38,068 nucleotides of DNA, from contig CALZGZ010000103.1 in NCBI GenBank assembly GCA_945787105.1, forward strand, positions 1-38,068, written 5' to 3'. The notes beneath the pieces were generated by a model. That model had not been told where the DNA came from and did no database searches. It saw only the letters and a list, made by a program, of their open reading frames with translations. Of this stretch, positions 16,169-17,955 are shown one piece after another. The stretch comes from an uncultured Gammaproteobacteria bacterium. GTDB taxonomy: Bacteria > Pseudomonadota > Gammaproteobacteria > Arenicellales > JAANXG01. The position numbers and the translations under genes are program-made. Position 1 is the first letter of the stretch; the number at the start of each line of letters is the position of its first letter.

Positions 16169-16372
16169 TTAGTTAAATACGACGCCTGGCTTGGTACCGA
16201 CGCGCTTTAGAATCTTGGCCAACGGGCAAAAACCGGTAAACGCGGCCTGCAACAGGTTGACGCCAACAAAGGCGGTCACCCACAACCAGTACGGGTAGTG
16301 ATAATGCGCCAAGGCGACGCTGAGCAAAATCATGGTGCCGGCAAATACGAGCACGATGCGGTCAATGGACAT
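16169..16372 (-). CDS. DUF2892 small inner-membrane protein
   Basis: A 67-residue two-helix membrane protein: hydrophobic segments at about 5-22 and 27-46, then the conserved [13 protein letters not shown] motif (about 47-59). This matches the DUF2892 family, often found fused or next to rhodanese domains (YgaP-like) and thought to belong with sulfur or thiol handling. Function unproven. It lies directly upstream of the DUF3365 gene. Confidence 0.85.
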
Positions 16373-16848
16373 GCGGTGGATTCCGTTAAATTAGTATTAC
16401 ACCATATGCTAATATACAACCCCCCACAGGTCAACACCCTGACCGGGGCATCGACACCCCAACCGCCACCCACCCCTCCCGCCGGGCGGTGCTCAAGGGC
16501 CGAGCTTTGTCCGTCGCGCGGCCCGCCCCACCCGTGCGGAGCCACACCCAGCGTCACCGCGCCTTGCCCGCGGATCCACCACGATAGCTGCCGCCGGTGG
16601 CCATTGCCGCGGCTTCGCTGCTGGTGAAATGCCGCACGGTCGTGGAACAGGCCAGGCCCCCAACCATCCACTTGACCGACCTGGCAACGGGACTGAGTGC
16701 CATCATCCACGGTACAGCGCTCGGTATCGCAATGCGCGACCAACGATTCATTCCAGTCAAGCCTTTGGGCTGAATGAAGGATATAGGTCGGCAGGATCCC
16801 ATGGTTCTCGATCGTCATGAACACGGGCTTTGTATCCACAAGCACCAC
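16330..16848 (-). CDS. Doubtful ORF after the DsrC-like gene
   Basis: An open frame of 172 codons from GTG 16848, seven bases past the DsrC-like stop. The first ~70 residues have plausible codon use and composition ([12 protein letters not shown]..., several Cys/His). The rest is Gly/Trp/Arg-rich and runs over the start of DUF2892. No family recognised. It could be a short real gene, a decayed gene, or a chance frame. Competing ORFs on both strands (for example 16554-16802 minus) are no better. Confidence 0.3.
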
Positions 16849-16854
16849 CGAGCG

Positions 16855-17220
16855 CTATTGAACGCTTCCAAACGAAGGGTCGTTAGTGCCAGGGGGTGGA
16901 TGTAGTCCCGCAATCCTGCAACCTTGGGCGACCGGACCGCCGGGAAGCAGCTTGTAGAGAAATTTTATACCGCCTTTTTGGTGAAATTTTTCATCCAGCG
17001 CATCGTGCAACTCACGTATGTGCAGGTTGGGCTCGTTCTTTGAGAAATACTCCTGAAGCGCCCGCACTGCTTCCCAAAGGTCATCGCTTGGCGCGAGGCC
17101 TTCTTCGCGCGCCCGGACAACCGCTACTTCGCGTGTCCAACCATCCGGGGCGTGCGGAAATCCCGAGTCCTCGCCCTCGTTATCGCCGGGGTGCAAGATA
17201 TCATCCATTGATTCCGCCAT
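16855..17220 (-). CDS. DsrC/TusE-family protein lacking the terminal cysteine
   Basis: A 121-residue member of the DsrC/TusE/DsvC family, small sulfur-carrier proteins of the cytoplasm. D-G-W-T-R-E-V-A (26-33), L-W-E-A-V-R-A-L-Q-E-Y-F (48-59), the H-I-R-E-L segment and G-G-I-K-F-L-Y-K-L-L-P-G-G-P-V-A-Q-G-C-R-I-A-G-L (83-106) are classic. C101 is the upstream CysB-equivalent. The position eleven residues later, where DsrC and TusE carry the reactive penultimate cysteine, is T112, and the tail extends to N-D-P-S-F-G-S-V-Q. No frameshift is apparent. It therefore cannot do normal persulfide transfer and may be a regulatory paralogue. ATG 17220 has GGAGGAG upstream. Confidence 0.87.
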   Translation of the reverse strand: MAESMDDILHPGDNEGEDSGFPHAPDGWTREVAVVRAREEGLAPSDDLWEAVRALQEYFSKNEPNLHIRELHDALDEKFHQKGGIKFLYKLLPGGPVAQGCRIAGLHPPPGTNDPSFGSVQ

Positions 17221-17427
17221 GTCTATCTCCTCCGTTGGTAACTATTGGTGTTGATACCCGATTCACCGCGTGCGGTGACCCACACTACCTAAGAATTACA
17301 AATCAATTGTACTTGGTTCGTCAATCGGCTTTACCCGCCGCAGCCCAAACTGAGTATGATTACCCCTGTGTCGGCGTTAGGGTAAACGCTGTTTATCGTT
17401 CCAGCACCACTATTGGATTTAGGACCA

Positions 17428-17955
17428 ATGAATGAGAATCGCTCCGAAGAAGTCAATATCAGCCAGTCCGTTGCCATCCTGGTGGACGGCAACAATATAG
17501 AACGCAGCATCCACGAGGAAACCGGCGATGCCAACACGATGCTCAATTTCGACAAACTAGTCCCCAAGTTGCTGGATAACCGGGGATTAAATCGATTGGT
17601 CTATTTTCGCGAAGGTAAACAGATTTCCTCAAAACTCCGGGAACGTCTGCACTTCCACTACCATGGCTCGGTACGGCCTTGTCATAAAAGCGCTGATATC
17701 CCTTTGACCATCAAAGCGATGCAGCTCGCAAGCAAGGTTGATACGATCATCATTATGTCCGGGGACTCGGACTTTGTTGAACTGGTCAGACACCTAAAAT
17801 CAGAAGGTGTGCGGGTGGAGATCGCCGCTGTGCCCAGGACAACATCACATGTGCTGGTTGACGACGCCGATTATTTTCATGAACTTAGCGAAGAATATTG
17901 GTTCACACTCGCTGCTAAGAAAACTGCACGAACACCCACCAAGAAGCGCAGATAG
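17428..17955 (+). CDS. NYN-domain (LabA/DUF88-like) putative ribonuclease
   Basis: A 175-residue soluble protein with a NYN/PIN-like fold. Acidic and polar active-site positions are visible: D20-G-N-N in I-L-V-D-G-N-N, D90 in K-S-A-D-I-P-L-T-I-K-A-M, and D113/D115 in M-S-G-D-S-D-F. The later V-E-I-A-A-V-P is the usual final strand. NYN proteins are metal-dependent RNA nucleases or regulators; the target is unknown. The tail is Lys/Arg-rich, perhaps for nucleic-acid contact. ATG 17428 is preferred over TTG 17413, with AGGA just upstream. It is divergent from the DsrC-like gene. Confidence 0.85.
   Translation: MNENRSEEVNISQSVAILVDGNNIERSIHEETGDANTMLNFDKLVPKLLDNRGLNRLVYFREGKQISSKLRERLHFHYHGSVRPCHKSADIPLTIKAMQLASKVDTIIIMSGDSDFVELVRHLKSEGVRVEIAAVPRTTSHVLVDDADYFHELSEEYWFTLAAKKTARTPTKKRR

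Follow-up and report, generated by a model that had tools for sequence, protein, structure and literature searches.

The window, that is, the whole 38,068-nucleotide stretch of DNA that was analysed, holds a minus-strand reading frame (16855–17220) of 121 amino acids plus stop, free of internal stops and supported as a coding sequence by its translation, profile matches and orthologues. The product scored above the cut-offs of both Pfam PF04358 DsrC (58.2 bits, cut-off 24.9) and NCBIfam TIGR03342 (57.4 bits, cut-off 53.5) and has a predicted DsrC fold, and is thus a member of the DsrC/TusE/DsvC superfamily. Its sole cysteine, C101 (codon 16918–16920), is the CysB equivalent; translation and alignment with relatives place T112 (C101+11; codon 16885–16887) at the CysA position, and nine further residues, NDPSFGSVQ (residues 113–121; 16858–16884), form a C-terminal extension. 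Translation and profiles thereby confirmed the first-pass annotation of a DsrC family core, a CysB-equivalent C101, T112 in place of CysA and a nine-residue extension.

A Shine-Dalgarno sequence, GGAGGAG (17227–17233, minus strand), rated good, lies 5' of the ATG, and the AGGAGA core is the sole upstream stretch conserved in all six aligned congeneric sequences. Comparison with four congeners gave a dN/dS of approximately 0.14–0.22, indicating purifying selection on the gene. Pfam matches identified a divergent NYN-domain gene on the plus strand (17413–17955) and, on the minus strand, genes for a DUF2892 protein (PF11127, YgaP-like TM; 16169–16372) and a Tll0287-like haem protein (PF11845; 15565–16149). 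The ~480 bp between the DUF2892 and DsrC-like genes (16373–16854) contain only overlapping small ORFs, which may be a gene remnant; the sole one scanned (16298–16627, plus strand) matched no Pfam family.

Conservation of the C-terminal tail

We scanned named genomes and obtained 335 relatives, of which the best 80 were retained, so that the set leans to close relatives. Exactly 20 residues follow CysB, ending FG[ST][VT]x, in all of these best 80 of 335; the CysB position is occupied by Cys in 78 relatives and by Ser in the other two, and 67 have one cysteine only. The cultivated sulfur oxidisers Thiorhodococcus and Thiocystis are among the bacteria with such a gene. At the CysA position the 80 relatives have A (42 of them), S (33), T (4) or C (1), and the single relative with C carries the same tail after it. 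In alignment A1, 25 of 27 rows end FGSVx (the exceptions being FGATY and SGATF) and three have Ser at the CysB position. We name this group, defined by 20 residues after CysB and the FG[ST][VT]x end, the FG-tailed DsrC-like subfamily, and the window protein belongs to it. The earlier description of a "lost" cysteine was correct in that CysA is absent, but slightly misleading, since a conserved tail replaces CysA throughout the subfamily. Nor did the relatives restore the cysteine, as a sequencing error in the window would have led us to expect.

A second, more distant FG-tailed group (L117–L130, L134–L136) has a more DsrC-like N-terminus and mostly Ser at CysB; 13 of its 17 sequences carry S, L, M or A at this position, so the tail is retained where the thiol is gone. 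FG-tailed proteins also occur beyond the class, in three genomes recorded only as "same phylum" (G442, G506, G540); in a phylum sample of 299 genomes, six had a match, three of them outside the class.

We built the paralogue tree suggested by the first-pass annotation from the window protein, its counterparts at 28 of the 80 loci and 45 of 46 paralogues, with tail columns omitted, L121 left out as a near copy of L120, and group labels taken from our own sequence pattern. In this tree 44 of 46 FG-tailed rows stood apart from DsrC, TusE and other rows (branch support 90/89, not starred; the rows outside were L124 and L136), and the clade that contains the window protein (30 rows) was starred with support 98/94. 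Among the 80 relatives, FG-tailed orthologues scored at least 72.7 bits and other paralogues at most 57.5 bits.

The host genome encodes four PF04358 proteins. One paralogue is a canonical DsrC, ending KPTGCV and adjoining dsrEFH, which answers the earlier question of whether the genome has one; another has neither cysteine and ends RKGGY; a third has CysB only and lies directly upstream of a second dsrA. Because canonical DsrC is present as well, the FG-tailed gene is best described as a specialised paralogue.

Several further DsrC-like genes were seen near dsr genes. Locus L116 (G000:C259), as also L003, holds a second, divergent dsrAB (dsrA 476 bits vs 640 for the main dsrA), and at L116 a DsrC-like gene of its own, without CysA and ending LPSEHDG, lies just upstream; divergent-type dsrA was also found in G001, G003, G004, G006 and G011, each time close to a DsrC-family match on the same contig. 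At L115:13499–16479 (G000:C178), the genes 5' of the main dsrA include one that is TauD-like, one that is unassigned, one of the Cas6/Cmx6 family (TIGR02807 120.6 bits, above cut-off; PF09559 203.5 bits) and the cysteine-free DsrC-like gene with the RKGGY end. Other genomes, too, have the Cas6-like gene and the unassigned gene together close to dsr genes.

AlphaFold2, run with 65 sequences, gave a model with a DsrC core (pLDDT block means 81–91, residues 21–110) and a disordered tail (pLDDT below 50 at residues 118–121). As Foldseek alone returned a best match of only E 1.2e-3, we added a VIA-align comparison of the predicted model, in which the top seven matches were DsrC-family structures (Z 9.5–6.2) and the next scored 3.9. 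Conservation in evolution combined with disorder in isolation typifies docking motifs; the FGSV tail, conserved yet disordered in the model, may be one.

Genomic neighbours and co-occurrence with dsrA

Counting as FG genomes those with a match of at least 113 bits, we found dsrA in 26 of 27 FG genomes of a class sample (host excluded), compared with 66 of ~247 without the gene (Fisher p ~6e-13, with descent not corrected for; N = 275 including the window's own genome, 274 without it). Adding the genomes with 91–107 bit matches gave 36 of 38. G164, the one FG genome of the 27 with no dsrA match, is 90% complete, and dsrA is present in its congener G279. In the set of relatives, 25 of 28 FG genomes had dsrA vs 20 of 51 others (p ~1e-5, descent again not corrected for), a count that omits G006 (L033, whose FG-tailed form is divergent) and G031 (fragmentary), both with dsrA; G041, G066 (broken match) and G067 had the FG-tailed gene but no dsrA match. 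These three and G164 count against the adaptor role proposed below, and some may be incomplete assemblies. The FG-tailed subfamily is widespread and found mostly in bacteria with the sulfur-oxidation enzyme DsrAB.

Neighbours were analysed with all ORFs, as long opposite-strand ORFs hid genes when the longest ORFs alone were used. TusA genes adjoin the FG-tailed gene in 8 of 80 loci (best 80 of 335), in two lineages. Seven of these, recorded as Betaproteobacteria (one as Nitrosovibrio), have a tandem TusA gene on the same strand, its end 7–44 bp upstream of the FG-tailed gene; six of the seven have a further TusA-like frame downstream on the opposite strand. At L050 (G010), which belongs to the same family as the window, a single TusA gene stands on each side, and dsrA is 3 kb off; L050, L072, L095 and L101 are the four of the best 80 of 335 with dsrA within the flanks. 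Several observations count against an adaptor role in the same pathway: no TusA gene was detected in the other 72 of these 80 loci, the window contains no TusA match, and the host dsr cluster is on another contig. The TusA genes of the host sit on other contigs. With the queries used, we also found no dsr or TusA genes near the second FG-tailed group or L157–L162, a weak result with flanks of ~3 kb or less.

Among the best 80 of 335 relatives, NYN genes lie within 5 kb in 16 (15 hits upstream on the opposite strand), DUF2892 genes within 5 kb on the same strand in 14 (some upstream, some downstream), and Tll0287 and OsmC genes near 6 each; the Tll0287-like gene is thus a lineage-specific neighbour. 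One operon common to all genomes was not found, the neighbours differing by lineage. The first-pass annotation had pointed to thiol or redox proteins nearby: PF11127 and PF11845 are indeed present, but OsmC scored under its cut-off and few relatives share these genes, which makes them weak evidence; the links to dsrA, TusA and NYN genes, which that annotation had not picked up, are stronger. Across 81 neighbourhoods (L035–L114 and the window), a CopD-like membrane protein gene was seen near the FG-tailed gene in 16, usually 5' of it in the same orientation, and a 6-phosphogluconolactonase-like gene, named by sequence reading, in 13.

Proposed role and alternatives

The FG-tailed protein probably serves the sulfur pathway in an accessory role, and is probably neither a carrier of sulfur nor the product of a broken gene. 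With moderate confidence, we propose that it assists the TusA-DsrEFH-DsrC-DsrAB route as an accessory or adaptor whose docking motif is the FGSV tail, the binding and the effect on flow being what we infer. A DsrC paralogue that has kept the predicted fold and not the reactive end cysteine would bind at least one partner of the cytoplasmic sulfur relay (TusA, DsrEFH or DsrAB) through its DsrC surface and flexible tail, and would tune or scaffold sulfur flow without carrying sulfur on a C-terminal cysteine. This proposal draws on a tail whose length and end are constant across the best 80 of 335 relatives and which outlasts CysB in 13 of 17 second-group sequences; on the separate clade in a tree without tail columns; on co-occurrence with dsrA (26/27 in the class, 25/28 among relatives); on TusA adjacency (8/80) and dsrA in the flanks (4/80) among the best 80 of 335; on the predicted DsrC core with a disordered tail; and on Allochromatium vinosum DsrC, which loads sulfur or sulfite on its penultimate Cys alone and has no need of Cys100 for this (PMC3397948). 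With T112 in place of CysA, the earlier view that the protein cannot act through a penultimate cysteine as DsrC and TusE do is borne out, and the partner-binding role suggested at that time is the best reading.

A bolder version, that the tail is a new reverse-Dsr docking module of a non-carrier scaffold joining TusA, DsrEFH and DsrC (or DsrAB) and conserved across Pseudomonadota, is put forward only tentatively. If it were true, sulfur would be channelled instead of released, and the proteins would form their own deeply conserved subfamily.

The first-pass annotation had also raised a DNA-binding regulator. In our version of this reading, the helix-turn-helix-like DsrC core would bind DNA and the tail or CysB would sense sulfur state. 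The divergent arrangement with the NYN neighbour would suit such a protein, binding of A. vinosum DsrC to DNA 5' of the dsr cluster is stated in PMC5944118, and a putative role in transcription regulation is cited in PMC7787665. However, the region of residues 67–92 has a mean net charge of +0.6 in 46 FG-tailed rows vs +4.2 in 16 CysA rows, and no conserved operator was found beyond the ribosome site upstream in six congeneric sequences; the less basic helix region and the sharing of the ribosome site only make this reading unlikely.

We consider it improbable, too, that CysB is the working cysteine of a single-cysteine sulfur or disulfide carrier acting via C101. Its Cys is present in 78 of the best 80 of 335 relatives and is the sole cysteine in 67, and TusA adjacency would fit such a carrier as well. 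This retention suggests that the thiol still matters in the window's subgroup, which counts against the adaptor role and leaves room for a CysB-based carrier. Against it, Ser replaces the residue in 2 of the same 80 and in 3 of 27 rows of A1, 13 of 17 second-group sequences have no Cys there, all with an FG-type tail, and the corresponding A. vinosum DsrC cysteine takes no sulfur (PMC3397948).

An inhibitor or decoy competing with DsrC for DsrAB or DsrEFH would explain a DsrC core without the reactive cysteine alongside canonical DsrC in one genome, as well as the strong dsrA link; a pure decoy, though, should need no invariant nine-residue extension, and we rate this reading as quite improbable. 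A decaying or mis-sequenced dsrC, for which the missing cysteine is the only point in favour, is negligible in likelihood: sequencing error and pseudogene status were rejected given purifying selection (dN/dS 0.14–0.22), a tail conserved in 80/80 relatives (best 80 of 335) and the separate clade.

Sulfur oxidisers often have multiple DsrC copies, and family models call all of them TusE/DsrC sulfur relay proteins. The FG-tailed subfamily has a simple sequence signature, which warns against counting its members as functional DsrC; this signature, together with the dsrA link and the TusA neighbours in two lineages, makes the role of the protein directly testable.

Comparison with known DsrC-family proteins

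The protein shares its fold and core sequence with A. vinosum DsrC (PDB 1yx3; 75.5 bits against A1, VIA-align Z 8.8) and other DsrC structures (2v4j, 3or1, 3or2, 2xsj, 1ji8), retains CysB as DsrC does, and belongs to the same pathway by co-occurrence. It differs in having no penultimate CysA, 20 residues after CysB, an FGSVQ end and, in FG-tailed proteins generally, a less basic helix region. A functional DsrC has both cysteines; with CysB present and CysA absent, the window protein does not qualify as one.

The common fold and family TIGR03342 are also shared with TusE of tRNA thiolation, and 7syb, a solved DsrC-family sulfurtransferase, reached Z 9.5 against the window model (VIA-align). TusE-type proteins retain the end cysteine, and CysB is absent from most of them (PMC3397948); the FG-tailed protein is the reverse, with CysB kept and the end cysteine gone. 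Without CysA, and with a score of 53.6 for NF008562 TusE (cut-off 191), the window protein is not TusE.

Phage proteins of the dsrC_1 group are DsrC-like and likewise without CysA, their second C-terminal cysteine being absent (PMC4164917). They differ from the present subfamily in that one scan of viral contigs held no FG-tailed relative, on which a phage origin was rejected. The RspA type, in the Venceslau 2014 review, is reportedly a DsrC-like protein without one or both cysteines. No description of the FGSV tail was found in the available DsrC, TusE, RspA and TusA literature, although that review may contain one.

A further parallel is with the extra DsrC-family proteins of sulfur oxidisers. 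A. vinosum has four DsrC-family copies besides dsrC (Alvin_0028, 0345, 0732 and 1508), whose expression changes on pyrite (PMC11267869), Thiodictyon has three besides DsrC (PMC5944118), and the Riftia symbiont Endoriftia has several (PMC7787665). Several DsrC-family copies per sulfur-oxidiser genome are thus already known, and the FGSV-tailed variant, apparently new unless covered by the 2014 review, occurs as they do beside canonical DsrC.
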